Origin: a virus
Length of the DNA stretch: 64,000 bases
Strand: one strand, 5' to 3'
IMG/VR virus record: IMGVR_UViG_3300032053_000004
Location: 124,001 to 188,000 of that record
Below the pieces are notes generated by a model, which had not been told where the DNA came from, did no database searches, and saw only the letters and a program-made list of their open reading frames with translations. Below, one piece after another: positions 22,786 through 47,085 of the stretch (the first letter of the stretch is position 1; every line of letters begins with the position of its first letter). The position numbers and the translations under genes were made by a program.

Positions 22786-22873
22786 CGTTGAATTGTTTAG
22801 TTGAATTACTCCTGCTAAAACGAAGTTTGTCTATAAGCTGCGTGATTAAATTTTTTTTTGATTTTAATTTAAT

Positions 22874-23299
22874 ATGAAGCCTTCTCAAGTCGCCATAGCT
22901 CTACGTCGTATCGCTGCCGGAATTCAGGCTTCAAAAAATCCTGACAAGAATCTAGTTGCTCGAGATCTAAAGAAAATTATATCTAAAATAGCAGGCATGA
23001 ATAATATGGATGGGATTAAGTGTTTAAAAGTTAATATTAGAGAACATAAACCGTTAACACGAGACACCCCTTACCCAGTTATCGATGGAGTTTTTCAATT
23101 TAGTACTCCAAACGGGCATATTATAGATTTTGATGGAAGATTTGATCCTAATGACGTTCGATTTGTTCTTCTTAAAGATGGGGAAGATGTTTCAGATCAA
23201 ATTGAGCCAGATGCATATAATATGGGTCCTGTTGATGAAAATTTAGAGGGTTTCGATCTTGAAGAAATTCTTGAGCATTGTATGAATTCTCAAGTTTAG
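22874..23299 (+). CDS. Leader-family protein A (shared N-terminal leader, acidic body)
   Basis: 141 residues. Residues 1-40 are the family leader: MKPSQVAIALRRIA, then an IQASKNPDKNLVARD linker and a second amphipathic helix, LKKIISKIA. Four other proteins in the window start the same way (23339, 25085, 25994, 37765). The body (about 42-141) is acidic and unrelated to the other bodies (DGIKCLKVNI, FDGRFDPNDVRFVLLKDGED). A T-rich tract and the string TTTAATATG precede the start, as in the next copy. The constant positively charged leader with variable cargo suggests a targeting or packaging signal, as known for T4 internal proteins; this is inference. No enzymatic motif is seen. Confidence 0.75.
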   Translation: MKPSQVAIALRRIAAGIQASKNPDKNLVARDLKKIISKIAGMNNMDGIKCLKVNIREHKPLTRDTPYPVIDGVFQFSTPNGHIIDFDGRFDPNDVRFVLLKDGEDVSDQIEPDAYNMGPVDENLEGFDLEEILEHCMNSQV

Positions 23300-23300
23300 A

Positions 23301-23338
23301 TTTTTTTTTTGATTTTTTTTTTTGATTTTTAATTTAAT
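23301..23338 (+). repeat. Tandem T-rich element upstream of leader-family gene B
   Basis: Three GAT-plus-T-run units in a row, then AATTTAATATG. Similar T runs precede the leader-family starts at 22874, 25085 and 25994 and the remnant at 23833. They may be promoters, transcription pause sites or recombination junctions used when the leader was copied. Confidence 0.55.
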
Positions 23339-23803
23339 ATGAAGCCTTCTCAAGTCGCCATAGCTCTACGTCGTATCGCTGTCGGAATTCAGGCTTCAAA
23401 GAAGCCTGACCGAAGGCTTGTAGTTCGAGATCTAAAGAAGATCATAGCTAAAGTGGCTCTTCTTGGCCTTCTCAAACCTTATTTGTTATTTACATCCCAC
23501 GCTGGAAGTGCAATATGGGAAATTTATGGACCAATTAATATCAACGATTTTAAGAACGCTGTGAAAAATTATAATTCAGATGATTCATCTACAGAACGTG
23601 GTTCAGACGGAACAGCATATTTTTTTGAAAATTCTGAGGATTTAATGAATAGATGGTCTGAAACTGGATTTGATTCAGTCGAATCCATTGATGACGCGTT
23701 AAATTCAGTTGAAAATCACGGTGACATGAGTTCTGACGAATCTATGAGAATGTTAACTGGTGAAATTGATGGTCTTACTGGAGTCGATTCTGAAGGCAAC
23801 TAG
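23339..23803 (+). CDS. Leader-family protein B
   Basis: 154 residues. The first 40 match the family leader with small changes (KKPDRRLVVRDLKKIIAKVA). The DNA from the upstream TTTAATATG through the first about 20 codons is nearly identical to gene A, so the 5' module was duplicated recently. The body (about 42-154) is unrelated to A: a short apolar stretch LLGLLKPYLLF, then WEIYGPININDFKNAVKNYN and an acidic C-terminus rich in Asp/Ser. It lies 39 bases after gene A. Function unknown; a delivered or packaged accessory protein is the favoured hypothesis. Confidence 0.73.
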   Translation: MKPSQVAIALRRIAVGIQASKKPDRRLVVRDLKKIIAKVALLGLLKPYLLFTSHAGSAIWEIYGPININDFKNAVKNYNSDDSSTERGSDGTAYFFENSEDLMNRWSETGFDSVESIDDALNSVENHGDMSSDESMRMLTGEIDGLTGVDSEGN

Positions 23804-23832
23804 TATATAGATAAAGTTTTTTTTAAATTGGC

Positions 23833-23952
23833 GTGAAGCCTTCTCAAGTTTCTATGACTTGGGAAGTTAATTGCTCCCCCCGAAGTTTTATGGAGGACCC
23901 CGTAAAGTTACATATGATGAGATTGAAAGAAAGTATAGTCTTTAATGGATAA
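23833..23952 (+). pseudogene. 39-codon ORF with a leader remnant
   Basis: A GTG start gives MKPSQVSMTWEVNCS and stops after 39 codons. The first six codons (MKPSQV) and the preceding T-rich DNA copy the leader-family start; the rest does not continue the leader. It overlaps the start of the phosphatase gene by eight bases. This looks like a decayed or freshly recombined copy of the leader module whose body was lost or replaced. A functional micro-protein cannot be excluded. Confidence 0.45.
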
Positions 23953-24454
23953 TCTAGATTCTGAAGCTTTAGCTGAACGTTATATAAATAGAATGTATAT
24001 AGACCACCCGGCTGTTCGCTGGTGGGCACATCCTCGAATTTTAGTTGGTGGATCGATTAACAATTCTGATGATTTTGAAAATATGCAAAATAAATTCGGG
24101 GTTACATCAGTAATCTCCGTAGAATCCGAGCATTCGGATTCAGGCAAAGTTCCTGAAGCAATTTTATGTCATCTTCCAACACCAGATGATGGATCCGCAC
24201 CGTCTGTCCAGCATTGGAAGACACTGATAGATTTCGCCCAAGTCGCACTGAAAGACCCTTCTTCTAAGGTCTATGTCCATTGCCAGATGGGCGGTAGCCG
24301 TTCTCCGGCTGCAGCTTATGCTATCTTGCGGACTGTATTTAATTTCAGCCCGGAAGATGCCCTATCCAGTATCCAGCGTTTTAAAACTGAATATGGTGGG
24401 CATTGGTACCACCAAAATTATATTGGATCTGTTGAGACAGCTCTCACTTCTTGA
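23945..24454 (+). CDS. Dual-specificity/tyrosine phosphatase-like protein
   Basis: 169 residues. The cysteine-phosphatase P-loop HCxxGxSRS is present as VHCQMGGSRSP, with nucleophile Cys113 and phosphate-binding Arg119. An upstream general-acid candidate lies in LPTPDDGSAP. The opening part (HPRILVGGSINNSDDFENMQ, VTSVISVESEH) matches the start of the DSP fold, and length is normal for a single domain. Known members remove phosphate from Ser/Thr/Tyr or from nucleic acid and carbohydrate phosphates. In a phage accessory block it could modify host signalling or reverse a phosphorylation-based defence; this is inference. It is convergent with the - strand gene that follows (overlap 11 bases). Confidence 0.82.
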   Translation: MDNLDSEALAERYINRMYIDHPAVRWWAHPRILVGGSINNSDDFENMQNKFGVTSVISVESEHSDSGKVPEAILCHLPTPDDGSAPSVQHWKTLIDFAQVALKDPSSKVYVHCQMGGSRSPAAAYAILRTVFNFSPEDALSSIQRFKTEYGGHWYHQNYIGSVETALTS

Positions 24455-25040
24455 TAGTATATAACCCCTTTTTCGGACTACTGAACAATCTCTTATGATT
24501 GTAGAAAGCAGAAGAAAGCATCTTCTTCCAGTCCTTAGCGGAAGATTTAAACCCTGAAGCTTTAAGCTCCTTTATAATTTCTTCTGCATTCATAGGATTT
24601 ACAGATTTGCTTAAAATCTTATGGATAAGGGTTTGAATCGGGGTTGAATTGATAATTCGACCGTTCGATAATTTTTTAAATGAATGCGCCGCGGCCCATG
24701 CCTGCTCGTAGATGGGGTTATCTGAAGATTTCTCTTCTTGCGGCGCAGTTTTCTTAGCAATTTTCTTAGTAATTTTCTTAGTAATTTTCTTAGCAGTTTT
24801 CTTAGCAGTTTTCGGTTTTTTCGATTCTTCTTGCTTTGTTCCGGACAAAGCAAGAATTTCTTCGGTTATTTTATTGAGTTCGGACTCCATAGACTGTCGC
24901 TTGGAAGATAGACTATGGAGTTTTAAATGTTTAGAATTTATTATCTCCTGGAGTTGTTGGATTGACATACTATCGATCTTGGATTTCTTCATTTCGAGTT
25001 TCTCCTGTTTGGGTTTCTCTGCTTTTGGCAGATTTACCAT
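24444..25040 (-). CDS. Lys-rich protein with C-terminal HARE-HTH-like domain
   Basis: 198 residues on the - strand. The N-terminal about 70 are a predicted coiled coil (SIQQLQEIINSKHLKLHSL, RQSMESELNKITEEI). A histone-H1-like basic tract follows (KTAKKTAKKITKKITKK). The last about 70 residues (TPIQTLIHKILSKS, MNAEEIIKELKASGFKSS, SAFYNHKRLFSSPKKGLYTI) resemble the winged-helix HARE-HTH domain (HB1, ASXL, restriction endonuclease HTH), a DNA-binding module. Such a layout suggests a DNA-binding regulator or nucleoid-type protein. It is transcribed against the late genes, so it may belong to another temporal class. The HTH match is by eye. Confidence 0.68.
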   Translation of the reverse strand: MVNLPKAEKPKQEKLEMKKSKIDSMSIQQLQEIINSKHLKLHSLSSKRQSMESELNKITEEILALSGTKQEESKKPKTAKKTAKKITKKITKKIAKKTAPQEEKSSDNPIYEQAWAAAHSFKKLSNGRIINSTPIQTLIHKILSKSVNPMNAEEIIKELKASGFKSSAKDWKKMLSSAFYNHKRLFSSPKKGLYTIKK

Positions 25041-25084
25041 TTTACAATTGAAATAATAGGATTTTTTTTTTCTTTTAAGTTAAT

Positions 25085-25486
25085 ATGAAGCCTTCACAAG
25101 TTGCCATAGCCCTTCGTCGTATTGCTTCCGGAATTCAGGCTTCAAAGAATCCTGATAAGAGGCTCGTCGCGAGGGATTTAAAGAAAATTATTGCTGAAAT
25201 AGCAGGAATGGATATGGATGAACTTCCATTCAAAGGTGACTCGGAATTTGAAGAAGTGATGATTGGAATCATGTTTGATCAAGAAATTGGACTTGATAAC
25301 GCTATTAATAAAGCAAAAGAACTAATTGAAAGAGATGGGTTTAAAACTGGGAAATTTATGATCGACCATCATCGCCCTGGGACAATTGTTGGAAATATGG
25401 AAATTTCTCCCGGGTTTTATGATAAATTCTCTGATGGTTGGGAGTCAGAGGATGAAGGTGTAATTGTTACCCTGGAAGCTCCTTGA
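25085..25486 (+). CDS. Leader-family protein C
   Basis: 133 residues beginning with the family leader (MKPSQVAIALRRIASGIQ, then RDLKKIIAEIAG). The body from about residue 42 is acidic and distinct (MDELPFKGDSEFEEVMIGI, NAINKAKELIERDGFKTGKF, ENSPGFYDKF-like end with DGWESEDEG). A T run and AGTTAATATG precede the start. The gene is isolated between the - strand HARE-HTH gene and gene 25538. The helix-rich body has no catalytic signature. Placement of the same leader before another unrelated body strengthens the idea of a portable signal. Confidence 0.74.
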   Translation: MKPSQVAIALRRIASGIQASKNPDKRLVARDLKKIIAEIAGMDMDELPFKGDSEFEEVMIGIMFDQEIGLDNAINKAKELIERDGFKTGKFMIDHHRPGTIVGNMEISPGFYDKFSDGWESEDEGVIVTLEAP

Positions 25487-25537
25487 TCATAATATTGTGT
25501 TTGGTTAAATCGTTCATTAAAAATAAACATTGAACCT

Positions 25538-25969
25538 ATGGATATGAATAATATTGCCATTCGGGTAGCTTCCATGAATCTGGAAGCGGCGAAGAAGAAA
25601 AAGAAAAAACCGAAGAAGACCGGTTTAAAATCTAAAAAACCAGCTCGGGTCTCCCAACCTAGAATTTTGGAGTCTATTACGGCTCCTGAGACTGAATATT
25701 CGTGCCGGGCTGAAATATCTTTCAGTGTTGATTTTGAAGGAAATGTATCTAAAGACAAACTTACTCGGGCGCTTAAACGGGAAATAATGGCGTCCCTCGG
25801 TTCAGCCGTAACTTCCGTCTCAAGAAGTTTTCAGATTTCAGCTTCAAATGTTCTAGTGAAGCCGATTGCTTTTGAAATTGCTACTAGTGACCAATTCATG
25901 GTCGAAGATATGGACGAGCTTGGTGAAGCCGGGTCAGAAATTGATGACCCTAATTACGAAGATACATAA
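25538..25969 (+). CDS. Hypothetical basic-start protein with IAxRxAS motif
   Basis: 143 residues, family not recognised. It starts MDMNNIAIRVASMN, a shorter version of the helix seen in the leader family, then a strongly basic stretch (AAKKKKKKPKKTGLKSKKP). The body from about residue 50 looks like a compact alpha/beta domain (SCRAEISFSVDFEGNVSKDK, LKREIMASLGSAVTSVSRSF), ending in an acidic tail (EIDDPNYEDT). The charge layout (basic head, acidic tail) fits an internal virion or nucleic-acid-associated protein. Function unknown. Confidence 0.62.
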   Translation: MDMNNIAIRVASMNLEAAKKKKKKPKKTGLKSKKPARVSQPRILESITAPETEYSCRAEISFSVDFEGNVSKDKLTRALKREIMASLGSAVTSVSRSFQISASNVLVKPIAFEIATSDQFMVEDMDELGEAGSEIDDPNYEDT

Positions 25970-25993
25970 ATTTTTTTTTAGATCATAACTAAT

Positions 25994-26431
25994 ATGAAGC
26001 CTTCACAAGTTGCTATAGCTCTTCGTCGTATTGCATCAGCTATTCAGGCTTCAAAAAATCCTGATAAGAATCTAGTTGCGAGGGATTTAAAGAAAATTAT
26101 ATCTAAAATAGCAGAAGGGCCTATTGATTGGGCTGACATCGAAAATACACTATTTAACGCTCTTAATAATTCAGATTCCGTTGAATCTGAAGTCTTTGAT
26201 GAAATAAGTGGATTAGATAATCTTAATCAACAGTATGGTCTTGTATTTTCACAAGTAATAGATCTTGATCAAAATATTGGTATTCAGGTTTCTTACGAAG
26301 GAGATTTTGATTTGGTTTGGTTCGGACCGATTTCTTCTTTTGATAAAACGGCAAAAGCAAAAGCAGCATCAGACGCTATTTTATCTGCTCAGAATTTCAG
26401 CTCGTTCCTCGAAGAAGATTTACTTCAATAA
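25994..26431 (+). CDS. Leader-family protein D
   Basis: 145 residues with the standard leader (MKPSQVAIALRRIASAIQ, RDLKKIISKIAEG). The body (about 41-145) is acidic and different from A, B, C and E: DWADIENTLFNALNNSD, VFSQVIDLDQNIGIQVSYEG, DLVWFGPISSFDKTAKAKAA. The IQVSYEG to VWFGPI stretch suggests a small beta-sheet. A T run lies about 20 bases upstream. It ends just before the head/neck-like gene run. Cargo or internal-protein role is inferred only from the shared leader. Confidence 0.74.
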   Translation: MKPSQVAIALRRIASAIQASKNPDKNLVARDLKKIISKIAEGPIDWADIENTLFNALNNSDSVESEVFDEISGLDNLNQQYGLVFSQVIDLDQNIGIQVSYEGDFDLVWFGPISSFDKTAKAKAASDAILSAQNFSSFLEEDLLQ

Positions 26432-26443
26432 ATTCGCTTGGTA

Positions 26444-26773
26444 ATGTTTGGGATGGACCAAGCTCCCAACGTTGTCAAAATTCAGCTCAAGCCTGAGACT
26501 CTAGACCAAATCGCCCGTTTGGATAGCGCAATTGCGCAACATTCGGTTGAACACAGCCAGATAGTTCTTCGAGCCCAGACACTGCTCATGGAGCTCGATG
26601 GTTTTTATGAGGCTAAAAAATCTACGGTTTTAGCGGCAACCAAAGAATCTGGACTCAATCCAGACATGGTTGTCCAAATGAAAATAAATCAGGATGGGTC
26701 AGCCCTTGTTCAGGTAAAGGCTCCTCAACATTCGGTTGAAGAACCGACTCCTCCGGCCCCAACCATACAATAA
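26444..26773 (+). CDS. Small helical hypothetical protein
   Basis: About 109 residues from the ATG at 26444; an ATG at 26453 is almost as likely, and a TTG at 26438 less so. Residues 15-75 form long helices likely to coil (LKPETLDQIARLDSAIAQHS, HSQIVLRAQTLLMELDGFYE). The C-terminus is Pro-rich (EEPTPPAPTIQ). Its position just before a run of virion proteins suggests a scaffold, chaperone or neck component. No family recognised. Confidence 0.6.
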   Translation: MFGMDQAPNVVKIQLKPETLDQIARLDSAIAQHSVEHSQIVLRAQTLLMELDGFYEAKKSTVLAATKESGLNPDMVVQMKINQDGSALVQVKAPQHSVEEPTPPAPTIQ

Positions 26774-26799
26774 GTTGTTGATTCCCATCCTGTTATAGG

Positions 26800-28125
26800 A
26801 TGCCCGCACCTCCTGATCGATACCCTGAAATTCTAGAACAAATTTATCCGGCTATCCCGTTAGCGCCGTTGAACGTTCTAGCCTCTACGGGTTTCGAAAA
26901 AGGAGTCGTAGATATCCGCTGGACGAATCCGGCAGAAATTGCGGCTAATACCACATTTAATATTTTAGGGGTCAATGTTTATCGGAGTTTTGACTCGGCC
27001 TTTGGTCCATATTTTCGTTTAACCCAAGTTCCTATCGGGTCTACATTTTATAGAGATAGATCTGACATACGGATGGCGGTTCAAGAAAACGTATCCGATT
27101 CTTTCATTTTAAGAGGACCAACTTCAGACCCTAGTTCTCGATATGTATTTAGGACTATTCAACGTCCTATCCATTTAGACCAATTTCCGGGATTGTCTGA
27201 CTGGACGAATTTAAATGTCCAGGTCACTATTAATGGAAAAAAGTCATTTGTTGAAAAAATTGATTCAACCTTAGGGGAGGTTTCTTTAGGTATCTATCCA
27301 TCTTTTGATGTTGGTAATAAAGAACAAATTCAACCAGTTTTACCTACGAATCCAAGCGATGTTGTTCTCGCTACCTACAAATACGTAAAATCATTTGTTC
27401 CAACAGATTTAGCCCAAAGGATATTCTATCGTTTAACCACTGTCGCATATGATCCTGAATGCAATCAACTCATAGAAACTCCTCTTGATCGAGCTTCGCA
27501 AACGAACAATCAAGAAGTTGAGAAGCTCGATTGGATTTGGAAAGAAGCAGTGCGTCGTAATCGTTGGATTCTCCAAATGGGAGGAGAACGAGTCAAATTA
27601 TTTATTAGAAGAGTCGTAGGACCGAATTGTGGTTGTAACTCTTCCATATACAAACAACCTTCTTCTGATTGTGTTGTTTGTTATGGAACGGGGATTATTG
27701 GTGGATATTCTGGTCCTTATGATATAGTAATAGCTCCGGACGACGCGGACAAATCCATAAAACAAGCAAATCGTGGAAGAAATTTAGATCACTCGTACGA
27801 GACTTGGACTAGTCCGAGTCCTCTTCTTTCTCAAAGGGATTTTGTAGTTAAACTGAATGGCGATCGTTATGGGATAGGTCCTGTTCGAATGCCGACAAAT
27901 CGGGGTATGCAACTCCAACAATTTTTCACTATTTCTCACTTAGATGAACAAGATATTAGATATAAAATTCCAGTTCTTGATACGACAGTTCTTGTTTTTC
28001 CACAAACTCGTTATACTATTCCTGGAAAAGGTAACGCAACTCCGATGGTCACGGAGTCTCAACGGATCCCGGATGAACATGAGATTCGAGGGGCCACCGT
28101 TACATTCCAAAATACTCAGTACTAG
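26800..28125 (+). CDS. Virion structural protein with zinc-knuckle-like Cys cluster
   Basis: 441 residues. Residues about 20-125 look like a fibronectin-III-type domain (GVVDIRWTNPAEIAANTTFN, VNVYRSFDSAFGPYFRLTQV). Near residues 275-305 four to five cysteines cluster in NCGCNSS and DCVVCYGTGIIGG; CxxCxGxG is the spacing of DnaJ-type zinc modules. The C-terminal part is beta-rich (YGIGPVRMPTNRGMQLQQFF, HEIRGATVTFQNTQY). It opens the head/neck-like run and is followed by two smaller proteins. A structural metal site in a neck or adaptor protein is plausible; no assignment is certain. Confidence 0.65.
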   Translation: MPAPPDRYPEILEQIYPAIPLAPLNVLASTGFEKGVVDIRWTNPAEIAANTTFNILGVNVYRSFDSAFGPYFRLTQVPIGSTFYRDRSDIRMAVQENVSDSFILRGPTSDPSSRYVFRTIQRPIHLDQFPGLSDWTNLNVQVTINGKKSFVEKIDSTLGEVSLGIYPSFDVGNKEQIQPVLPTNPSDVVLATYKYVKSFVPTDLAQRIFYRLTTVAYDPECNQLIETPLDRASQTNNQEVEKLDWIWKEAVRRNRWILQMGGERVKLFIRRVVGPNCGCNSSIYKQPSSDCVVCYGTGIIGGYSGPYDIVIAPDDADKSIKQANRGRNLDHSYETWTSPSPLLSQRDFVVKLNGDRYGIGPVRMPTNRGMQLQQFFTISHLDEQDIRYKIPVLDTTVLVFPQTRYTIPGKGNATPMVTESQRIPDEHEIRGATVTFQNTQY

Positions 28126-28184
28126 TTCCTTTATTTAAATCGGAAAATTATCCTATCTCATGAGCGTCGTTAAGGGCGATGAGT

Positions 28185-28841
28185 ATGCAAAAGAAAAAAA
28201 ACGTAAATTATGCGACTCAATTAAATACGGTAGTCGATAGAATACTAGATAATATAGTAGATAATATAGCTAAAGATGGACTTGTTCTTTTAAAGAAAGT
28301 ATTAGATTCATCCGGTTTTGCGGATTCTGAGTATCTTAAAGATTATGAAGTATATGCTCATGTAACCGGACACTCCATAACTTTTGAAATTCTTCTCGAC
28401 ACATCAGCTATAGACGAAATTGAACAAGAAAAATCAGAAGAAGCAAAAGAAAAAGCTGAAAAAATAAAAGAAAAAAAGATTGAAAGAGCCTCTAGGTCTT
28501 ACGGGATTGTAAAAACCGGGCCAGCCAGAGTTCTTGGAGTTCGAGACGCTCGTTCTCCAGCTATAGACGCGCGGACGGATAATAGAAAGAATTCGAAAGA
28601 CCGATTAGTTGAACATGAGATAGCTTTAGTAGCTCCTCGTGGTCTTTCCGTAAAAAGGAATGGTAAAGTTTCTCTTAAATTAAAAAGAACAGCGAGAGAA
28701 ACTGATACTGAATTCATTTATCCTAAACGAGACCCTGAAGGAATAATAAAAGAGTTTCTTGATAAGTTAAGTGATATAACTAAGAAGAATTTTCTTCCAG
28801 AACTTGAAAAAGCGATATCTAAATATGCTTCTCAAAATTAA
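28185..28841 (+). CDS. Hypothetical virion-cluster protein with charged coiled coil
   Basis: About 218 residues. The ATG at 28185 is chosen because AGGG lies eight bases upstream, while the in-frame ATG at 28179 is too close to it. Features are an N-terminal helical part (YATQLNTVVDRILDNIVDNI), a strongly charged segment (EKSEEAKEKAEKIKEKKIER) likely to be coiled coil, and a basic C-terminal half (VKRNGKVSLKLKRTARETD). It overlaps the next start. The basic surface and position suggest a head-completion or DNA-contacting component. Family not recognised. Confidence 0.6.
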   Translation: MQKKKNVNYATQLNTVVDRILDNIVDNIAKDGLVLLKKVLDSSGFADSEYLKDYEVYAHVTGHSITFEILLDTSAIDEIEQEKSEEAKEKAEKIKEKKIERASRSYGIVKTGPARVLGVRDARSPAIDARTDNRKNSKDRLVEHEIALVAPRGLSVKRNGKVSLKLKRTARETDTEFIYPKRDPEGIIKEFLDKLSDITKKNFLPELEKAISKYASQN

Positions 28842-29385
28842 ATTGATAAATCAGATATCTTCAGATATAATTATTGAGGATATAGGAGTTAAATTGAGTG
28901 GGAAAGGTGATTCCCGTATAGTAGATTTTGACATTGCCTCAAAGTCTAAAGATTTGGTTCGTATGGCTGGAATAGTTAGACAAGAGCAAATTCCTGTGCT
29001 TAAAATTTGGCCATTCACATCCACCCCGGATATTCCGGTTCCAAAATCTATAATTCCCCCTCAAAAGCCGAACCCCGTCAAAATCATAATTCACGATGAT
29101 CAATCAAAAGCCATTTCAGAACTTTCTTCAAAAATGGATATGATTCTTCAAATGCTTTCGGAAAAATCTAATACTCCGACAACTATCGTAAATCAAATAA
29201 TGCCTTCATCTGGACAGATTGCTCAGTCTCCGATGAAAAAATCGGATGATCCGGTATTCATACCTAGTAAGATAGTCCCGGATGGAGTTGAATCAAATAT
29301 GAATATTAAATCTAATGAAATTCAGAAAGAAGATATTGAAGATGTGAGTAGAAAACTTGGTTCTTTGTTAAGATCTAAGAAGTAA
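28825..29385 (+). CDS. Hypothetical virion-cluster protein
   Basis: About 186 residues from the ATG at 28825, which lies inside the end of the previous gene. A TTG at 28804 would give a longer overlap and is less likely. The N-terminal 60 residues are beta-like (SSDIIIEDIGVKLSGKGDSR), followed by a Pro-rich linker (PDIPVPKSIIPPQKPNPVK) and a helix (AISELSSKMDMILQMLSEK). The tail ends DVSRKLGSLLRSKK. It lies just before the actin-like ATPase and may be its partner. Unrecognised. Confidence 0.58.
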   Translation: MLLKIKLINQISSDIIIEDIGVKLSGKGDSRIVDFDIASKSKDLVRMAGIVRQEQIPVLKIWPFTSTPDIPVPKSIIPPQKPNPVKIIIHDDQSKAISELSSKMDMILQMLSEKSNTPTTIVNQIMPSSGQIAQSPMKKSDDPVFIPSKIVPDGVESNMNIKSNEIQKEDIEDVSRKLGSLLRSKK

Positions 29386-29397
29386 TGTTATACTGGA

Positions 29398-30426
29398 ATG
29401 GCTAGGAAAGAAACACATATGGAAAAGTCTGAAATCGTTCCAGGTTGCTCTATAGACGTTGGCACCATGAACTTGGTGGCCGCTCGTCGATCTGGGAAAA
29501 AAGTATCCACTAATCGAATTCGAAATGCTTTTATAGATTTAGAACCTGATAAGAAGAGAATGCTTAAGTTGAGTAACACGAGTTTCGTAGAACTCGGGGA
29601 TCGTCTTTTAGTCTTGGGCGACGAAGCTTTAGAAACCGCTAATTTGTTTAATCGTGAAGCTCGCCGCCCAATGTCTGGAGGATTGATGGCTTCAGGAGAA
29701 CTTGATTCTCAACAAATTATCAGTTTGATGATGAAAAAAATATTAGGAGATCCTACAGTCCCTAATGAAAAATGTGCTTATTCAGTCCCTGCCCCGGCTG
29801 TTGATGTTAATGATTCTGATATCACATATCATAAAGCAGTTTTAAAGAAAATTTTGACTGAGCTTGGATACGATGCCATAGATGTTAATGAAGCTTTAGC
29901 CATCATATTTTCAGAGTGTGGTAATGAAAATTTTTCTGGCCTTGGGATAAGCTATGGTTCTGGTATGACTAATGTTTGTCTTGCCTATAACGCCATGAGT
30001 GCCATGGAGTTCTCTTTAGGGAGAGGCGGGGATTACATAGATCGTGGAGCCGCTAAAGCTGTTGGCACTACAGCTGCTCGAATTTGTTCTATTAAAGAAG
30101 GTAAGTCTAAATCTGTAGACATAACTAAACCTGAAACTCGGGAAGAAGAAGCTATAGCTTTGTTCGTTCAAACTCTCATAGATTATACTATAGATAATAT
30201 CATTACTCATTTTCATAATGTAAAAAGTGAGCTTTTCATACCGAAACCAGTTCCTATAATAGTTTCCGGCGGGACTTCATTGGCTAATGGATTTTTGGAG
30301 AAATTTAAGGAACGATTTAAACTTCATTCAGGAAAGTTCCCGTTTCAAGTTTCAGATATAAGGGCTGCTGCTGACCCTATGACAGCTGTGTCTACCGGAC
30401 TGTTATTATTGAGTCAGATGGATTGA
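29398..30426 (+). CDS. Actin/Hsp70-superfamily ATPase (MreB/ParM/MamK-like)
   Basis: 342 residues from the ATG at 29398. The ASKHA fold motifs occur in order: phosphate-1 CSIDVGTMNLVA (near residue 17), connect-1 VNEALAIIFSE, phosphate-2 LGISYGSGMTNVCL, a loop SLGRGGDYIDRGAAKAVGTT as in MreB/Hsp70-type proteins, and the adenosine motif PIIVSGGTSLANGF. Length suits an actin-like filament former and is too short for full Hsp70 with its substrate domain. Phage actins such as AlpC move phage DNA in the cell; others segregate plasmids or position proteins. It lies among virion genes rather than replication genes, so a role in assembly, localisation or chaperoning is possible. Polymerisation cannot be read from sequence. 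Confidence 0.82.
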   Translation: MARKETHMEKSEIVPGCSIDVGTMNLVAARRSGKKVSTNRIRNAFIDLEPDKKRMLKLSNTSFVELGDRLLVLGDEALETANLFNREARRPMSGGLMASGELDSQQIISLMMKKILGDPTVPNEKCAYSVPAPAVDVNDSDITYHKAVLKKILTELGYDAIDVNEALAIIFSECGNENFSGLGISYGSGMTNVCLAYNAMSAMEFSLGRGGDYIDRGAAKAVGTTAARICSIKEGKSKSVDITKPETREEEAIALFVQTLIDYTIDNIITHFHNVKSELFIPKPVPIIVSGGTSLANGFLEKFKERFKLHSGKFPFQVSDIRAAADPMTAVSTGLLLLSQMD

Positions 30427-30456
30427 TTGATACCTGTTTAATGCGGAATACTTAAT

Positions 30457-30738
30457 ATGGATAATTATTTTCGTGGCGTTCCTGTTGGAAAGATAATCAC
30501 GACTGTTGAAGACGTTATATCTCATAACGCTTCTGTTGGTATACTTTCTCCCTCAGGTCAACCGACTAATCAAGTCGATCCTCCTTCGCTCCCTTTAGCC
30601 CCAGAGCCTCCCCAAAATACTGGGGGTTCTCAGGAAGAAATTCCTGCTGTGGAAGCTTCTGAACCTGTGGAAGCTTCTGAACCTGTGGAAGCTTCTGAAT
30701 CTGATGCATCAGATTCTCCAAAGCGTCGTCGTCGATAA
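30457..30738 (+). CDS. Small acidic protein with tandem EPVEAS repeats
   Basis: 93 residues. A folded-looking start (FRGVPVGKIITTVEDVISHN) is followed by a Pro/Gln-rich disordered stretch. An 18-bp tandem repeat at about 30649-30699 encodes VEASEP units, and the protein ends in a basic RRRR tail. The repeat is slippage-prone. It sits between the ATPase and a virion protein; function unknown. Confidence 0.58.
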   Translation: MDNYFRGVPVGKIITTVEDVISHNASVGILSPSGQPTNQVDPPSLPLAPEPPQNTGGSQEEIPAVEASEPVEASEPVEASESDASDSPKRRRR

Positions 30739-30750
30739 CGAAGGCGTGAT

Positions 30751-31962
30751 GTGCAATATTCTTGGCTCAGTTCACCTATTAAGAAGAAGCTCATACATGA
30801 GCTTCGTTCAATATTAGAGAGTCACCCCAGATACCGGGGTGACGCTCAAAACGTTCAAAATAAATTCGCCTTTACCGAAAGGCCTCAACGTGGGATTATA
30901 CTAAATAATACTTCTGCAGATCGAGTTAGACTATCTGCAGATAACTATATCGGTTGTCTTTCTTCATTTTGTATGCTTGCTTATTACACGGATTTTCCTG
31001 GGACTACTATTGAGTGGGTTCGGGAAAATTCGGATTTGCTTTATAAGATTTCCCCAAAAAGGAACATTTTTCCTAGTCATCCTGGCGTATATAATATATC
31101 AATAACTGAAGTTCCGGATGAAGCTCATAATATTCCTGGGAAATTTGTTATAACTCCTCTTTTGACCATTACTAATGAACCACTGATTGTTTTTTCTAGT
31201 TCAGGTGATTTTGATGCCCAGCTTTCTCATGAAAATATCTATCCAGGGTCCGTTAGGCTTTGGTTAGATCAAAGAATAGCTCTTCTAGAAGGTGTAGACT
31301 TTATTGTTGAAAATACGACCGGATATGTAACGTTTTTAAAACCAACTCCTACTGGGTATTCAGTTTCTGCTGATTATCGATTCATAATCCCGGATCAAGG
31401 TCCACTTGATTTTAAATCAGAAGAATTTGATGCTACTTCAATTCCTGGAGTCGTTATAGCATTTGGTGATCGGGCTCAAAAAGGAGACCGGTTATCTATT
31501 GTTGTGACTGACGAAAGAGTTGATACTGCCTCAATTTATGGCGGGAAATTTGAAATCAATACTGAACTTATAGTTTTTACTCGGGACGCTGAAGACCGAG
31601 AAAAAATGAGCGATTATGTGATAATTAAAATGCTTGAGCGCCAAAATGATCTCGGATTTTTAGGCATAGAACTTCTCGATATTTCCCCAGGGGGTGAGAG
31701 CGAAGAAGTTTACAATGAAGCCACTGACGATTATTTTTATGATAGCACAATCTCGCTTTCTCTTCGGGTAGACTGGGAGTCATACATTCCTCTCCCGATC
31801 GAAGTCGAAGCTATCCGTATGACATCTAAATCAGCAGAACAAGAAACTGGTTATTTGGATGGAACATTCCCATACGATTTATTGAAAATCGGTTCTCCTG
31901 TGGAAGTTGCAGGGGTGAATACTATTATCGGTCGGAATATCGGATATGAGCGAACTCGTTAG
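30751..31962 (+). CDS. Virion structural protein (neck/tail-completion candidate)
   Basis: 403 residues from a GTG start (MQYSWLSSPIKKKLIHELRS). The N-terminal 60 residues are helical and basic; the rest is beta-rich: GSVRLWLDQRIALLEGVDFI, GYVTFLKPTPTGYSVSADYR, GVVIAFGDRAQKGDRLSIVV, SLSLRVDWESYIPLPIEVEA. The order relative to the sheath and the mostly beta content suit a neck or tail-terminator component of a myovirus. No exact family is recognised. A small inverted repeat lies near the 5' end of the gene. Confidence 0.62.
   Translation: MQYSWLSSPIKKKLIHELRSILESHPRYRGDAQNVQNKFAFTERPQRGIILNNTSADRVRLSADNYIGCLSSFCMLAYYTDFPGTTIEWVRENSDLLYKISPKRNIFPSHPGVYNISITEVPDEAHNIPGKFVITPLLTITNEPLIVFSSSGDFDAQLSHENIYPGSVRLWLDQRIALLEGVDFIVENTTGYVTFLKPTPTGYSVSADYRFIIPDQGPLDFKSEEFDATSIPGVVIAFGDRAQKGDRLSIVVTDERVDTASIYGGKFEINTELIVFTRDAEDREKMSDYVIIKMLERQNDLGFLGIELLDISPGGESEEVYNEATDDYFYDSTISLSLRVDWESYIPLPIEVEAIRMTSKSAEQETGYLDGTFPYDLLKIGSPVEVAGVNTIIGRNIGYERTR
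30821..30843 (+). repeat. Short inverted repeat inside coding sequence
   Basis: GTCACCCC and GGGGTGAC are separated by seven bases, giving a stable GC-rich hairpin about 70 bases into the gene. It could affect translation or be chance; no T run follows. Confidence 0.5.
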
Positions 31963-32001
31963 AAATTTTGTGACATAGTTCGATTCCATTAGATCTCTTT
32001 A

Positions 32002-32016
32002 GTATAGTTTATCGTG
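32002..32016 (+). promoter_or_regulatory. Second copy of the GTATAGTTTAT motif
   Basis: GTATAGTTTATCGTG abuts the GTG start of the zinc-ribbon gene. It matches the string before the GTG at 10425 except for one inserted T. It is a candidate late promoter or start-site signal; no -35-like partner is obvious. Confidence 0.3.
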
Positions 32017-32427
32017 CCTGTATTTGAATACACATGCAAAAATTGCGATGTTGGTTTCGAAGAAATTTTAGTTAATTCAGAAGATATTAAAAATTTTTTC
32101 GAAAAGCATAAATGTCCTGTTTGCAATAAATGGGCGAAAAGACAACCAGTTTCCGCAGTGAATTTTACTTTTAAGTCCTCTACACCTGGAAACTCAGGGT
32201 CTCATGATTTGGATTATCCGACCTTAGATAAGGCTGTCGGAAGATCTTCTGAGAAAAAATGGGGAAAAATTAATGATAGAAAAGCTGCCCGAGACAAAGT
32301 AAGAAAAGAATCTGGTACCAATTCTATAACTCAAATCGGTAATAAAATGATGCCGACTTCTCCTGAAAAATTGGCAGTACGTCAAAAAGCTTTCGAAACT
32401 TTAAGAGAAGTTTCGAAAAAGTCTTAG
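32014..32427 (+). CDS. FmdB-type zinc-ribbon protein
   Basis: 137 residues from a GTG start. The N-terminal ribbon has Cys8, Cys11, Cys34 and Cys37 (YEYTCKNC-like start, KCPVCNKWAKR), typical of the FmdB family of small zinc ribbons. The remainder is basic and helical (KWGKINDRKAARDKVRKESG). FmdB-like proteins occur in many phage late clusters without a proven role; regulation or assembly has been proposed. The start is preceded directly by GTATAGTTTATC, the motif also found before the GTG at 10425. Confidence 0.75.
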   Translation: MPVFEYTCKNCDVGFEEILVNSEDIKNFFEKHKCPVCNKWAKRQPVSAVNFTFKSSTPGNSGSHDLDYPTLDKAVGRSSEKKWGKINDRKAARDKVRKESGTNSITQIGNKMMPTSPEKLAVRQKAFETLREVSKKS

Positions 32428-32473
32428 ATATTAATAAATCAGCCTAGTCTCATTGTTGAGGCTTCTATGATTT

Positions 32474-32507
32474 GAGTTTCTTGAGCCCTTCCGGTCTCAA
32501 GAAACTC
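32474..32507 (+). terminator. Hairpin between zinc-ribbon and sheath genes
   Basis: GAGTTTCTTGAG and its complement form a 12-bp perfect stem with a 10-base loop, in the 160-base gap before the sheath gene. A T-rich stretch follows after about 15 bases. It may end the upstream transcript or structure the sheath leader. Confidence 0.6.
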
Positions 32508-32586
32508 ATACATAGATTTGTTTTGCGGATTTTTTAGTACATAGACCAAGACGTAGACCTTCTAGATTAGGAAGGGAATCAGGAAA

Positions 32587-35500
32587 ATGGGAATCGGACC
32601 TTTCACCACATACGCACCTCCTGGAGTTTACACGAGCACCTTAGTTGAACCGGCCGTCGGTCAACTTTTAGGTGGTCTTCGTATACCTGTACTAATTGGC
32701 ACAGGCCAAGAATCTATGTCTCAGGACAATTATGAAATTGTCCGTGGGTCTAGCAGCGTATCCGATACTCCGATCTTCGGAGAAGACGTCGCTGCCCGCT
32801 GGGTTGTTAGTGGTACTAACACCAACCCGGTCCTTGGTAACCAAACCGGGGATCTTTTCAAGTTCCGAGTTCGGAACTATCCGATCGTAGATGGGACTGG
32901 CATCGGGCGGACTGCCTTTGACGCTAACCGCGTTGCAGTTTCTGTCAATGGCCAACCTGTATCTGTTTCTGGTGTTGATGGCACTAACGGCATCGTCTCT
33001 CTTTTAATTGCTCCTGAGCCTACTGATATTGTTACAGTTAATTATTATTTCCACCGTAAAGATACCAGAATCACCGATGACGTCTCGATTCAGGTGACGC
33101 TCGGATCTGCCGTTCTGATTGTTCCGAGAGTAGAGACATATGTCATAGTTACTGGTGTTAACGACACATTAATCGTTAATGTCAATGATTCGGCCAGTTC
33201 TTCGACGATCGTTTTCCCGGCGGCTACATATACCGCTGCTTCAGCGGCTAATGCTATTAATATAGCGGCCATTCCGGGTCTCACAGCCTCGGTCCATGTT
33301 GATAATCAGGCCTTGAATCACGTTCAGCTCGTTGCTCAAGGAAACGTTCTGATTGGTTCAGGAAACGCCAACGGAACCTTCGGACTCAATCCGGGCGCAT
33401 ATACGAATAGAAATCGTAGTTTCCGAGTATTCAACGGTCCGATCGTTGACGGGTCTGATGGTGGCATTACGACCACTGATCCTTCGAAGGTCGTGGTTAT
33501 GGTTAATGGCACTCAGGTTCTCGCTTCGGCGGTGGACGGTGCCAATCGTTTAGTGACTCTTTCGTCTGCTCCTTTTAATGCAGCGATAGTTACTATTCAA
33601 TACTACTTCAACACATACCAAGATACTTTCGATTATCTCCCGAATTCAAATATCGTTTCGACCGGGAATGTCGGCATATCCCCTGGCCGTCGGGACTATC
33701 TGAACGGCCCCGATTTCATCGTCATAAACCAAGGCGATCAGTCCATAATTCAGTGGGGTACCGCCTTCCAGGTTCAGCCGGGAACGAGAACCGGAACCAC
33801 GTTTTTCGATGGAACCCAAGTTCTTGGGTTACTTGTCGATGATCGCATATTTGCGATAGAGTGTGCTCGATTTACTAATCCGACTACAAATTCGATCGAG
33901 ACGAATGTTTGGACGCTTCCGCTCCAGCCTACGACCGGAAATGGGCGTGATACGCCTCTTTCAACTTCTGTATTCAATGCCATAACGAATGGCAGAATTG
34001 ATCTTCCAACCGATCAGCCTGAACTGGTTACTGCTTATGTTGGAAAAACGGTCCGCGACGCTCTCGGGCGTCCTCCGGTCACCGTTCTTGCGGTTGATTC
34101 TGTGACCAATAATATAACTCTTAAAGATCCGGTTCCAGCGGATTATAGAGTTTACGCAACATTCTGGTACAATCGTATTCAGGATGACACTTATACCCTG
34201 ACGGTCATCAACGCTGGTTCTACTGGTGTTGGTACGTATAACGTCGCATCCCAAGCTCAGGGTCGTAATCTTCTGAGTATGAGATTCGGAACGAAGACGG
34301 CTCTTCCCCAATCGGTTAATTTCCCGAGTGGTTCAGAACTCAATCCCGACGCGATTCAATTCGGTGGGAACCCGGTTTCTGAAACTGCGACTATTACTTT
34401 CACGTTGCAACCGGCGACTCACGCTTCGTTCACCAATGCGAACGCGGAGCCGTACGATCTGTTTGCCCCAGGGTCGAACATTTTCGGGAGCGTCATTATT
34501 GACGGTGTTCCGATCAGCGTGAACATGTCTACGGCTTATCCGGCAACTCTCGCCGGTCAGCCGGTGTTTACTCCGGCAACTCTCGTTTTCGCGGCGACGG
34601 ATCGTCTCGTTCTTGAAGTTGATGGTGTTTCGCTCAGCCCAATCGATGTGAGCGCTCTCACTACGCTCTCGGCTGTTGCGAACTCGGTCAATGAACAGAC
34701 TGTTATCGATCTCGCAAATGAGCTGAAGGCGGATTATAACTCTCATATTGCATCTACGACATATCATCTTGCAGCGGACGTCGCTAACCCGGTTACATCT
34801 CCTGATGCAACCTCACTTGCATCTGCTATTACTCTCATAAACGAGATGCAGGGTGACTACAACGCCCACAGAGTCAGCGTAGTTTTCCATCCAAACGCTG
34901 ATATAATTAACGTATCGGCGGCGGCTGCAGCTGTCGATCTTCCGACTGCCGTCACACTCGCTAATGAACTGAAGACCGTATTTAACTCTCATCGCGTTCA
35001 GTTCAATACAACGAACGGAAACGTTCATGTTATTGATGATACAGTGAACGTTGTTTCCACTCCCAATTCTGGTGGAGTGGCAACAGTTATCACTTACGGA
35101 ACCGAACAGGTTCTGGGTCTTCAGAGCACGAAGACTCCAGCAGCAGCACCTTCTGGATTGAATGATCTTTCTAGAACCAAGGTTTTGATCCCGGTTCTTT
35201 CGGGCCAAACTGACGCGGCGTCTAAAATCGGCCTCCAGTCCAATTTGGAAGCCACTGGGTCTTACAACTCGATCAATCAGCCTGGATTCCAAGTTAGTGG
35301 AAACGCCGGACCATTCAATATTTCAGCATCGGTTACTGATCAGTTTAGGTTCAATATTGACGGAACTGATTTTACTTCAATTCTTCCGTCAGGATCAACG
35401 ACTTCAACTACAGCAGTCGCCAACGCCATCAACGGAACCATAGCTTCAGCGGCCGACATAGCAACCGCTACAGCTACGCTCGTTACTCTTGCAAACGATA

Positions 35501-37632
35501 TCAAGACTCAGTTTAACCTTCACATACCGTCTGTTGTTTTCCACACGATTGCTGACGTCGTTAATACCATAACGTCTCCTGCTGCAACAGATCTCACGAC
35601 GTCCATAACGCTTTTGAATGAAGCAAGACTGCGCCATAACGCTCATCGGGTTACTGGCGCTTTCCATCCAGCTCCGGATACGATAAACGCTGTTCTTGCG
35701 TCTAACGCAACGAATCTTGGAACAGCGATTACTCTCGCCAATGAGATTAAGGCTGAGTTTAATCGTCATCGGCTTCAGACTATCGGTGCTGTCAATGTTC
35801 ACGTGGCTGATGACGCCGTAAACGTTGTTGCGGCAGTGGATGTGCTTTTTGCAAATCCTGCGGCCTTCGCAGGAACGTTGACCGGTCAGTATGCAGGTAA
35901 GCTCCTCCTCCGTTCCTTCGTCAATACTGTTCAGTCGGTTGTGACTACTCAGGACGGAACGGCAAACTCAGTTCTTGGATTCTCGAGTTTTGTAGACGCT
36001 TTCCGTGACCAGCCTACGGCTTCGGATATCGCGTCGGCTTTGGATGCGAATACGACATTCTTCGGAGCAGTACCGGTTCTCCCTGCGGTTCTTCGGACTA
36101 GTTCCAAGAGCATTGCATGGGCGATATCCGTAGCTGGTCTTGGAATGTTCCTCCAGATTAACTCGGATACTGCCGGTTCGACGTCAACGATTTCGTTTGC
36201 TTCTGTTGCAAACACGGCGTTCATTCCGGATACTGGGATCGGAATTACTCCAGGAATCTCCGGAGATACTGGAGAAGCCACTCACTCGGGCTTCACGGTC
36301 ACTTCGTCGGACTTGATTAACGGTTCTAGTGGAACTGGTTTCCCAGGCCAGACTTACACGGACGCCCGTACCGGTCTTCGATTCACCATTCTTCCTGCTA
36401 CGAGCGGAGATTACGCGATCGGTGGGAGTTTCACTCTCCTCATAGGATCGACTTTCACCTGCGACGCGTCAATTCCGACTCGCCAAGTTCCGGGTATTGA
36501 GACTACGGTTCTGAATACGAACGGTATGGCCGCTGGTACTACGGCGTTCTTGTCCACATACCTCAGGACTGGCAATGAGCCTAGGAACGGGGATGTTTAC
36601 TACATCTCATATCAGTTCGCGAAGACTGATATTTCTACGGCTCTTTTCCGGGATCTCAAGAGGATTCAACAGAACTTCGGACCTCCGACGCCTGAATTCC
36701 CTCTGAGTTTGGCTGCTCGTTTGGCTCTTTTGAACGGTGCCGTTCTCGTTGGAATTCGTCAGGTTCTTCGGGCTCCGAATTCTTCCCAGGCTTCTCTGCA
36801 ATCATATGTCGAAGCGATTGATGATCAGCAGAAACCGATTGCTGGGAACATTAAACCGGATGTGATTACTCCTCTCACGTCTGACCCCCAGGTATTTGCT
36901 TACCTGAACCAACACTGTGCTTTCATGGGTTCACCTCGTCAAGAAGGTGAGCGTATCGGAGTTGTTGGTGTTGCGGTTGGAACCAACCCTCTCGGGGTTC
37001 AAGCTATCGCTAAGGGCTTGGCTTCTGAGCTCATGATTGTGGTTTATCCTGATTCATACGTGGTTACAATCACGGATACGGCGTCAGGTGGAAACCTCGA
37101 TCTTTTGATTGATGGGACTTATTGTGCTGCGGCCTTGGCCGGAACGGCATGCGCTCCTTCAATCGACGTGGCTACTCCTTGGACTCGTAGACAAATCCAA
37201 GGGCTCAAGCGCGTGGGTCGTATTCTTGATCCAACGGATGCCAACCAGACGGCTGTTGCTGGTGTTACCGTCATTGAGCAAGTTGAGTCGGGTCTTCGGG
37301 TTCGTCACGGTCTCACGACAAACCTGGCCTCAGTCATTACGCGTACTCCTTCTGTCATATTGACCATTCAATATGTTCAACAGACCATGCGTAAGGTCCT
37401 GGATCCGTTCATCGGCCAGAAGTTCAATGGTCAAATTCTCAAGTCAATTGAGAGTGCCATGGTCGGAGCTTTCTCGACTCTGATCGATAATCAGATCGTG
37501 GCCAAGGTTTCGGGCATATCGGCAACTGTCGATGATCAGGATCCGACGATTGCTCGAACGGAAGCCATTTACGTTCCTGTCTTCCCGCTAGAATATATAG
37601 TATCTATACTTTCTATTCGTATTAGATTATAA
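32587..37632 (+). CDS. Tail sheath protein, very long form with repeat insertions
   Basis: 1681 residues; a typical sheath has about 450-700. The N-terminus is typical (TYAPPGVYTSTLVEPAVGQL, LGGLRIPVLIGTG). The C-terminal about 390 residues carry the sheath core: PEFPLSLAARLALLNGAVLV, ERIGVVGVAVGTNPLGVQAI, TPWTRRQIQGLKRVGRILDP, GLRVRHGLTTNLASVITRTP, and a closing segment for the C-terminal arm. Between lie large insertions: a beta module present twice (YPIVDGTG near 92, GPIVDGSD near 280) and two blocks of three helical repeats (about 700-815 and 960-1075) with the consensus LANELK-YN-HR and a later D--N. The insertions should face outward as decoration domains. Codon choice is less AT-rich than its neighbours, fitting high expression. 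The sheath contracts to drive the tube through the host envelope. Confidence 0.93.
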   Translation: MGIGPFTTYAPPGVYTSTLVEPAVGQLLGGLRIPVLIGTGQESMSQDNYEIVRGSSSVSDTPIFGEDVAARWVVSGTNTNPVLGNQTGDLFKFRVRNYPIVDGTGIGRTAFDANRVAVSVNGQPVSVSGVDGTNGIVSLLIAPEPTDIVTVNYYFHRKDTRITDDVSIQVTLGSAVLIVPRVETYVIVTGVNDTLIVNVNDSASSSTIVFPAATYTAASAANAINIAAIPGLTASVHVDNQALNHVQLVAQGNVLIGSGNANGTFGLNPGAYTNRNRSFRVFNGPIVDGSDGGITTTDPSKVVVMVNGTQVLASAVDGANRLVTLSSAPFNAAIVTIQYYFNTYQDTFDYLPNSNIVSTGNVGISPGRRDYLNGPDFIVINQGDQSIIQWGTAFQVQPGTRTGTTFFDGTQVLGLLVDDRIFAIECARFTNPTTNSIETNVWTLPLQPTTGNGRDTPLSTSVFNAITNGRIDLPTDQPELVTAYVGKTVRDALGRPPVTVLAVDSVTNNITLKDPVPADYRVYATFWYNRIQDDTYTLTVINAGSTGVGTYNVASQAQGRNLLSMRFGTKTALPQSVNFPSGSELNPDAIQFGGNPVSETATITFTLQPATHASFTNANAEPYDLFAPGSNIFGSVIIDGVPISVNMSTAYPATLAGQPVFTPATLVFAATDRLVLEVDGVSLSPIDVSALTTLSAVANSVNEQTVIDLANELKADYNSHIASTTYHLAADVANPVTSPDATSLASAITLINEMQGDYNAHRVSVVFHPNADIINVSAAAAAVDLPTAVTLANELKTVFNSHRVQFNTTNGNVHVIDDTVNVVSTPNSGGVATVITYGTEQVLGLQSTKTPAAAPSGLNDLSRTKVLIPVLSGQTDAASKIGLQSNLEATGSYNSINQPGFQVSGNAGPFNISASVTDQFRFNIDGTDFTSILPSGSTTSTTAVANAINGTIASAADIATATATLVTLANDIKTQFNLHIPSVVFHTIADVVNTITSPAATDLTTSITLLNEARLRHNAHRVTGAFHPAPDTINAVLASNATNLGTAITLANEIKAEFNRHRLQTIGAVNVHVADDAVNVVAAVDVLFANPAAFAGTLTGQYAGKLLLRSFVNTVQSVVTTQDGTANSVLGFSSFVDAFRDQPTASDIASALDANTTFFGAVPVLPAVLRTSSKSIAWAISVAGLGMFLQINSDTAGSTSTISFASVANTAFIPDTGIGITPGISGDTGEATHSGFTVTSSDLINGSSGTGFPGQTYTDARTGLRFTILPATSGDYAIGGSFTLLIGSTFTCDASIPTRQVPGIETTVLNTNGMAAGTTAFLSTYLRTGNEPRNGDVYYISYQFAKTDISTALFRDLKRIQQNFGPPTPEFPLSLAARLALLNGAVLVGIRQVLRAPNSSQASLQSYVEAIDDQQKPIAGNIKPDVITPLTSDPQVFAYLNQHCAFMGSPRQEGERIGVVGVAVGTNPLGVQAIAKGLASELMIVVYPDSYVVTITDTASGGNLDLLIDGTYCAAALAGTACAPSIDVATPWTRRQIQGLKRVGRILDPTDANQTAVAGVTVIEQVESGLRVRHGLTTNLASVITRTPSVILTIQYVQQTMRKVLDPFIGQKFNGQILKSIESAMVGAFSTLIDNQIVAKVSGISATVDDQDPTIARTEAIYVPVFPLEYIVSILSIRIRL

Positions 37633-37653
37633 ACGTTTGTTCAGTATTCAATA

Positions 37654-37690
37654 TTGGAAGACATCCGAATTTAATCCGGATGTCTTCCAA
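37654..37690 (+). terminator. Hairpin after the sheath gene
   Basis: A 14-bp perfect inverted repeat (TTGGAAGACATCCG and complement) with a 9-base loop starts about 20 bases after the sheath stop. Only a weak T-rich stretch follows, but the position supports termination or mRNA 3'-end protection. Confidence 0.72.
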
Positions 37691-37764
37691 TTGAATTCTT
37701 ATTAGTTCAATATTTCCCGCTTGGAGGACCATCTGTGTTTGGTTTTTAGTTAATTTATATTAAT

Positions 37765-38100
37765 ATGAAGCCTTCTCAGATCGCTCAAGCTTTAAATCAT
37801 ATTGCTTCTAAAATTCAGGCTTCAAAGAATCCTGATAAAAATCTAGTTGCGAGGGATTTAAAGAAAATTATTGCTCAAATTGACGAAGATGGCTCTATGA
37901 CTGAAGACGACTTCATTAAAATGATTGAGAAACATTTGCCAGAATTAAAAGAATGTATGGGAAAAGGGACTTCTGAAGAAAATCAAGAATTAGAAAAATA
38001 TATGAAAAAACATTTAGGTTTGGATAATTGGGATGAAATAATATCCAGAGCAGGAAAAGTTCTGAAAACCATGATTAACTGGGTTGAATCAAAGAAATAG
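37765..38100 (+). CDS. Leader-family protein E (between sheath and AAA ATPase)
   Basis: 111 residues. The leader is the most diverged of the five (MKPSQIAQALNHIASKIQ), but ASKNPDKNLVARDLKKII is intact. The body (about 42-111) is helical and acidic (SMTEDDFIKMIEKHLPELKE, LGLDNWDEIISRAGKVLKTM). It lies about 11 kb from the other members, directly after the sheath and before the AAA ATPase gene. That separation argues that the leader is functional and not just a local duplication scar. Function unknown. Confidence 0.73.
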   Translation: MKPSQIAQALNHIASKIQASKNPDKNLVARDLKKIIAQIDEDGSMTEDDFIKMIEKHLPELKECMGKGTSEENQELEKYMKKHLGLDNWDEIISRAGKVLKTMINWVESKK

Positions 38101-44071: not shown

Positions 44072-44310
44072 ATAGGATAGCTTTTAGAATAGCATCCTTA
44101 GATGTTTCTGTTGAAATAAACGGCGATAATATATCATTAACTAGAAGTGACGGAAAAATCATAAAGGGAACTTACGTAGAGCAAGACGATGAGGCGACGT
44201 TACAGGAGAATACTACGGAATTGGCTCCGGATCAGGCTTTATGGATCCTGGAACAAGCTTCGAATTTTGGTCCCACTACTACCTGGGATGAATTAATATC
44301 TATTCTCTAA
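44068..44310 (+). CDS. Small hypothetical protein with IAFRIAS start
   Basis: 80 residues, start overlapping the previous stop. The first ten residues (MNRIAFRIAS) repeat the short amphipathic motif of several proteins here. The rest is a small beta/alpha unit (SVEINGDNISLTRSDGKIIK) with an acidic end. Its 3' end overlaps the end of the convergent homing-endonuclease-like gene by 18 bases. Confidence 0.6.
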   Translation: MNRIAFRIASLDVSVEINGDNISLTRSDGKIIKGTYVEQDDEATLQENTTELAPDQALWILEQASNFGPTTTWDELISIL

Positions 44311-47025: not shown

Positions 47026-47085
47026 TGTTTTTGGAGTGTACTGTTCTACAAGAAGACTTAAGTTTTTATTCTTTTTGCGTTTTTG

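Follow-up and report, generated by a model that had tools for sequence, protein, structure and literature searches.

In an uncultivated jumbo phage, five genes whose products are otherwise dissimilar begin with almost the same 40 residues, and the locus raises the question of what such an element does for the proteins that carry it. The window, i.e., the whole stretch of DNA that was analysed, is 64,000 nucleotides long and corresponds to bases 124001-188000 of IMG/VR record G000 (202,143 bases), a 202-kb jumbo-myophage contig. An earlier note on this DNA had described the common start as a constant, basic two-helix leader in front of variable acidic cargo and had likened it to a packaging or loading signal.

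Module copies in the window and the contig

All five ORFs named in the earlier note were present, each starting with ATG on the plus strand and each with the module at its N-terminus: copy 1 at 22874..22993 (ORF 22874-23299, 141 aa), copy 2 at 23339..23458 (ORF 23339-23803, 154 aa), copy 3 at 25085..25204 (ORF 25085-25486, 133 aa), copy 4 at 25994..26113 (ORF 25994-26431, 145 aa), and copy 5 at 37765..37884 (ORF 37765-38100, 111 aa), the last immediately 3' of a tail-sheath-like gene. The leaders were indeed nearly identical, with the first 40 residues 78-95% identical to copy 1, and the bodies had diverged as claimed, BLASTP among the parts behind the module finding no similarity at E<0.1. 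A profile built from the five leaders and run over G000 retrieved its own five sequences at 3e-27 to 2e-29 and six more copies at 7e-9 to 1e-25, with the next match at E=1. In total, G000 holds 11 copies (10 N-terminal and 1 C-terminal), six inside the window and five outside it. The C-terminal copy, absent from the earlier note, is copy 6 (41426..41536, plus strand), which spans residues 290-326 of ORF 40559-41554 (331 aa); homologs of the SPGVAFHL domain of this ORF in L027, L195, and L249 also have the module C-terminal to the domain. Searching viral metagenomes with the profile of the leader alone, as had been suggested, gave more copies in G000 and in related contigs.

Orthologs of the copy 1 body in L197 and L249 bear the module, L245 of another contig holds a protein similar to the copy 4 ORF across most of its length, and in the gap adjoining the sheath gene, module ORFs are also found in G012 and L018/L019. 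The majority of the G000 copies lie inside the structural block. Module genes outside it occur at contig 37-39 kb and 69 kb in G000 and at 28-70 kb in G012, and some copies are located among replication-type genes (contig 68905, L244). A T-rich upstream element, at 22838..22873 (plus strand) for copy 1, is common to the G000 module genes; it also lies 5' of 23339, 25085, 25994, and contig 85010, and in weaker form 5' of 37765 and contig 68905. Its best matches were module genes without exception, and it was not found in G012 or G036.

The phage encodes terminase, portal, head maturation protease, and a major head protein (phrog_2522) of the HK97 capsid type at contig 92-107 kb; for the prohead protease, L014 2029-3552 matched phrog_18299 (head maturation protease) with E 2.7e-10. 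By the capsid protein, the nearest named relatives are LR745208 (75%), Tunturi_5 (45%), and Bacillus phage G (37%), and at least 436 IMG/VR relatives exist. Tunturi_5 prompts the guess that the hosts may be acidobacterial. Gene order in the structural block is common to G000, the module-bearing G012 (307 kb), and the module-free G026 (619 kb, of which the comparison covers the first 400 kb). Between portal and protease, contig ORFs 96837 and 99470 have homologs in G012, whereas the initial 400 kb of G026 yielded none; this makes these two putative core proteins first candidates for a partner of the module.

Other ORFs of the window were also noted. Among the module genes lie a plus-strand ORF (23945-24454) with the CX5R phosphatase-like motif VHCQMGGSRSP, by eye like dual-specificity phosphatases, and, on the opposite strand, ORF 24444-25040, whose lysine-rich product looks histone-H1-like and matched HARE-HTH weakly (E 0.001, below the cut-off). 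The high G+C at the start of the window is due to a collagen-like repeat ORF (714-5138, plus strand, 1474 aa). Two endonuclease-like ORFs, 44293-46056 (minus strand) and 47083-48873 (plus strand), flank the tail genes; they have similar C-termini (72% over 57 aa) and are likely homing elements. ORF 29398-30426 (plus strand) is kept between tail genes, with 66% identity in G012 and 49% in G026; a PHROG search gave no match, and from GCSIDVGTMN it may be read as an actin-like or ASKHA-type ATPase.

Conservation, position, and exchange of the module

The module is a unit of about 40 residues, or about 120 bp, forming an amphipathic hairpin with conserved hydrophobic positions, in the pattern S..LA..LRRIA..I, a turn S-x-x-P, and LV..DL..I..I. 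In the AF2 model of the protein encoded at window position 22874, its helices span residues 3-19 and 25-42. A census of about 20 related contigs, all of them metagenomic and some fragmentary, from very large bacterial viruses of soil and water, gave 79 distinct copies. Across these, A14 (78 copies), P3 and P23 (77 each), and L10 (74) were the most conserved positions, followed by V28 (71), S20 (69), I13 (65), and I17 (64). In pairwise comparisons of the G000 copies, dN was 0.02-0.29 and dS ranged from 0.3 to saturation. Since dN between paralogs is well below dS, the protein sequence is the conserved layer, and the module is under strong purifying selection.

The basic character ascribed to the leader stood for G000, where nine of the ten N-terminal copies had a computed pI of 9.8-11.9 (the copy at contig 113390 had a pI of 6.0), but fell for the family, in which net charge was zero or below in 19 of 79 copies, with a mean of +2.6. 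The bodies, mostly small, acidic, and mutually unrelated, did fit the description of variable acidic cargo: pI was below 6 in 44 of 52 N-terminal bodies, compared with about 40% among proteins of like size (Fisher p at or below about 1e-7), and the G000 bodies had pI values of 4.1-5.9. Searches of the window proteins against Pfam, PHROG, and NCBIfam gave nothing significant, and no assignable function was found for the window bodies. Among all module bodies, the named folds were ferritin-like (two, L162 and L157; PF00210 above the cut-off) and LRV repeat (one).

The module (INDEPENDENCE) is N-terminal in the majority of copies, but the term leader used earlier was too restrictive, as a strictly N-terminal placement was not supported. 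C-terminal modules were found in window ORF 40559, L027, L183 1094, and L192, internal ones in L149, L164, and L249 1973, and two in tandem in L144 4211-4966. The LRV-repeat body of L147 (PF01816, E 3.6e-22) has a module at both ends, L154 1028 (61 aa) consists of the module joined to a proline/glutamate tail, and a 41-aa ORF at L018 4540-4665 (L018/L019) is a stand-alone module. Because ORF starts were assigned mechanically, some copies scored as internal (L159, L151 3329, L177) may in fact be N-terminal. Position independence is also seen within one homologous family, whose members have the module N-terminally (L146), internally (L181, L189), C-terminally (L150, L200, L192, L175), or not at all (G000 107923); most members lie about 2-10 kb from the capsid gene, L146 and L181 being exceptions.

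Bodies are swapped at the same sites, and related bodies differ in their tags. One syntenic site lies between a sigma-like gene and the conserved gene next to it; a module gene occupies this site in G000 as well as in G012, with unmatched bodies. The ferritin body of L162 has the module, whereas its counterpart G012_134069 (49% identical over 149 aa) has a short leader only, and the L157 body carries a module that G026_270028 lacks. G036 holds six module copies that share 86-97% of their DNA although their flanks are unrelated; one of the six lies inside a 333-aa protein. Copies resemble each other within genomes: in 43 of 84 cases a module had its nearest relative in its own genome (shuffled labels gave 9%), and a same-genome paralog was closer than the module on an orthologous body by 21 to 6. 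This clustering is compatible with gene conversion, with co-evolution of the copies and a partner specific to each genome, or with both. Gene conversion alone could produce the within-genome similarity, as in G036, although between the G000 copies dS runs from 0.3 to saturation.

Distribution and related N-terminal motifs

Of 31 large contigs whose capsids are related, 21 matched the module profile at E<0.1, about 80 places being listed, of which the weakest may be chance. Most large contigs with a capsid identity of at least 87% carry the module, and they hold most of the listed places. In the sister group (capsid 75-77%), a broader profile gave weak partial matches at most, usually one per contig and two in G033. 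The weak match in G029 falls in a protein homologous to contig ORF 114993, which belongs to the structural block and is conserved, and this match may hint at the origin of the module. The module was not found in phage G, Tunturi_5, or LR745208, the named phages closest in capsid protein, not even with the broader profile, and tblastn of the 40 residues against isolated phages returned chance matches of 21 residues only. Two pattern-based scans of bacterial and archaeal genomes, a method that detects close forms only, gave no confirmed relative; diverged bacterial forms would escape such scans. The phage setting presumed earlier, as opposed to non-phage cytoplasmic proteins, was borne out in that the module is confined to phages of one capsid lineage encoding a prohead protease. 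The earlier note knew of no described family with this leader, and the module likewise had no significant match in Pfam, PHROG, NCBIfam, or PDB, where the sequence search gave mostly designed coiled coils, weak and not significant. Two AF2 models, one for the window 22874 protein (mean pLDDT 76) and one for the capsid-neighbour family (68), were used in fold searches, which found nothing below E=0.001.

A shorter N-terminus of the form ..IASRIA.. shows the same phylogenetic split as the module. It was observed versus expected 10 versus 0.7 times in G000 (at least one of the ten seems to be chance), 13 versus 1.4 times in G012, and 0 versus 1.5 times in G026, and it can replace the module on two bodies. 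ORF 25538..25969 (plus strand) starts with such an alternative leader, MDMNNIAIRVAS, and its homolog L265 326-721 has the 40-aa module instead; G012_233102, with the short leader, is homologous to the same module-bearing protein. An IAxRIA-type N-terminus at 20942..20986 (plus strand) belongs to ORF 20942-21796, which has a homologous domain with the module in L191/L194, and an IAFRIAS-type N-terminus lies at 44068..44100 (plus strand; ORF 44068-44310). Short leader and module occur together in some proteins (L150, L191). The swaps suggest that the IASRIA leader is linked to the module, but in view of these double carriers the link is a tentative one.

Some other proteins with short N-terminal motifs were recorded. 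In G012, L236 17834-18499 is a C39-like cysteine peptidase (E 3.9e-14) with a short IANRIA leader, and the adjoining G000 paralogs 34627-35298 and 35302-35958 (L010), both with an IASRIA leader, gave a weak APH phosphotransferase match (E 0.001, below the cut-off). The N-terminal motif of the capsid protein, ..SPSGRKRLAASMVQPLRER.., recurs in small proteins at G000 42647-42877 (L011 2647-2877) and G042 13388-13498, the former matching the major capsid protein motif with 41% over 29 residues; it may be a second recruitment motif, taken from the capsid protein.

Docking, loading, and the alternatives

A conserved amphipathic hairpin that functions at any point of attachment is probably a docking element for a common partner. 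The two helices would bind one phage-encoded partner and recruit any protein fused to them; phages of this capsid lineage would copy the 120-bp unit onto the start, middle, or end of accessory genes, with bodies swapped behind it. The likeliest partner would be a part of the head-assembly core, in the scaffold region between portal and protease, and tagged proteins would be loaded into the virion and perhaps delivered with the DNA. That the module serves in this way, as a portable docking module for loading through the head-assembly core, is put forward tentatively, as the reading that may well be correct. We infer the prohead location and the loading from T4-like logic, the restriction to one capsid lineage, and the many copies among head and tail genes. 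Against loading stand the lack of a T4-like cleavage site behind the module, the module genes outside the structural block, and the 41-aa stand-alone module without cargo. The earlier view of the bodies as effectors delivered with the DNA is possible. A more far-reaching version, in which the module would be a universal, position-independent, non-cleaved cargo-loading tag, with bodies such as the ferritin-like ones exchanged as cartridges and the IASRIA leader using the same route, is a somewhat doubtful possibility.

The capsid targeting sequence (CTS) of the T4 internal proteins IPI-IPIII lies at the N-terminus, where 10 residues are enough for targeting, and is cleaved by the protease (PMC9026906). 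Like the CTS, the module is a small portable element on unrelated bodies that differ between relatives (PMC9026906), in a phage with an HK97-type capsid and a prohead protease; unlike it, the module is about 40 residues long, helical, position-independent, and also found in tandem or alone. T4-like cleavage after the leader was not upheld, as (I/L/V)xE-(A/G/S) stood just behind the module in 4 of 55 cases against a background of 23 of 270, this being the T4 consensus, from which that of the phage's own protease may differ. The module would work much as the CTS does, but since it shows neither a fixed N-terminal location nor an enrichment of such a site, we do not class it as a CTS. The earlier note had also pointed to contractile injection systems, where the particle has a contractile tail and its variable cargo shares a constant N-terminal region; this parallel did not hold, as the module is position-independent and helical and no link to the tail tube was seen. 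In jumbo phages of the SPN3US/phiKZ type, head proteins likewise form paralog families and bear N-terminal extensions, but the source on these propeptides (20-254 residues, N-terminal, cleaved) does not describe them as a module common to many unrelated bodies (PMC10052503). Encapsulins (PMC11202242, PMC8346489) recruit cargo including ferritin-like proteins into an HK97-fold shell by short targeting peptides, which recalls the module on the ferritin-like bodies of L162 and L157. They are, however, cellular compartments, in contrast to a phage with terminase, portal, protease, major head protein, and tail, and the module is a structured hairpin on many different bodies. In the paper on Tunturi_5, a term search turned up neither mass spectrometry nor structural proteins.

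The same docking module could serve an intracellular partner, a hub of replication, transcription, or host takeover, without any packaging. The copies among replication-type genes or distant from structural genes would suit such a hub, and ferritin and LRV bodies are plausible in the cytoplasm. However, most G000 copies lie inside the structural block, the family with variable module position mostly sits near the capsid gene, and no replication enzyme was seen bearing the module; we consider this alternative unlikely. Less probable still is an oligomerisation domain, in which hairpins would pair into four-helix bundles and bodies would multimerise with themselves or each other without a separate receptor. 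The amphipathic hairpin with its hydrophobic positions, the weak PDB matches to designed coiled coils, and the tandem and both-end arrangements agree with it, and the stand-alone form could be a free subunit. On the other hand, conservation of P3, S20, and P23 exceeds the need of a generic coiled coil, even if the prolines and the serine may be structural, and ferritins already oligomerise; moreover, promiscuous mixing would be forced, as the unrelated bodies of a single phage carry many copies that are almost identical.

Very improbable, in our judgement, is a nucleic-acid-binding tag by which proteins would enter the capsid or reach the genome through phage DNA. The basic N-terminal copies of G000 speak for it; against it, conservation falls on hydrophobic residues and on those of the turn, and the charge survey, with 19 of 79 copies at a net charge of zero or below, led us to reject DNA binding by charge as a family property. 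We give least credence to a gene-birth or expression cassette, in which the 5' T-rich region and the first 40 codons would aid expression of new genes and the peptide would have no binding role. The T-rich element accompanying the module in G000 and the turnover of bodies agree with such a cassette, but the element was not found in G012 and G036, and C-terminal, internal, and tandem copies together with protein-level purifying selection largely contradict it.

If the docking module does act as a loading tag, one could read straight from sequence which proteins of uncultivated jumbo phages are candidate cargo, and the address would function at either protein end, unlike that of T4. If the cartridge version were true, the virion would be a configurable protein-delivery vehicle whose cargo list is readable from sequence. 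If the module instead docks to another hub, it would still offer a way to approach dozens of orphan phage proteins without any other common feature. The repeated copying of a 120-bp unit onto genes that are otherwise unrelated clearly exemplifies how phage proteins evolve by modules.
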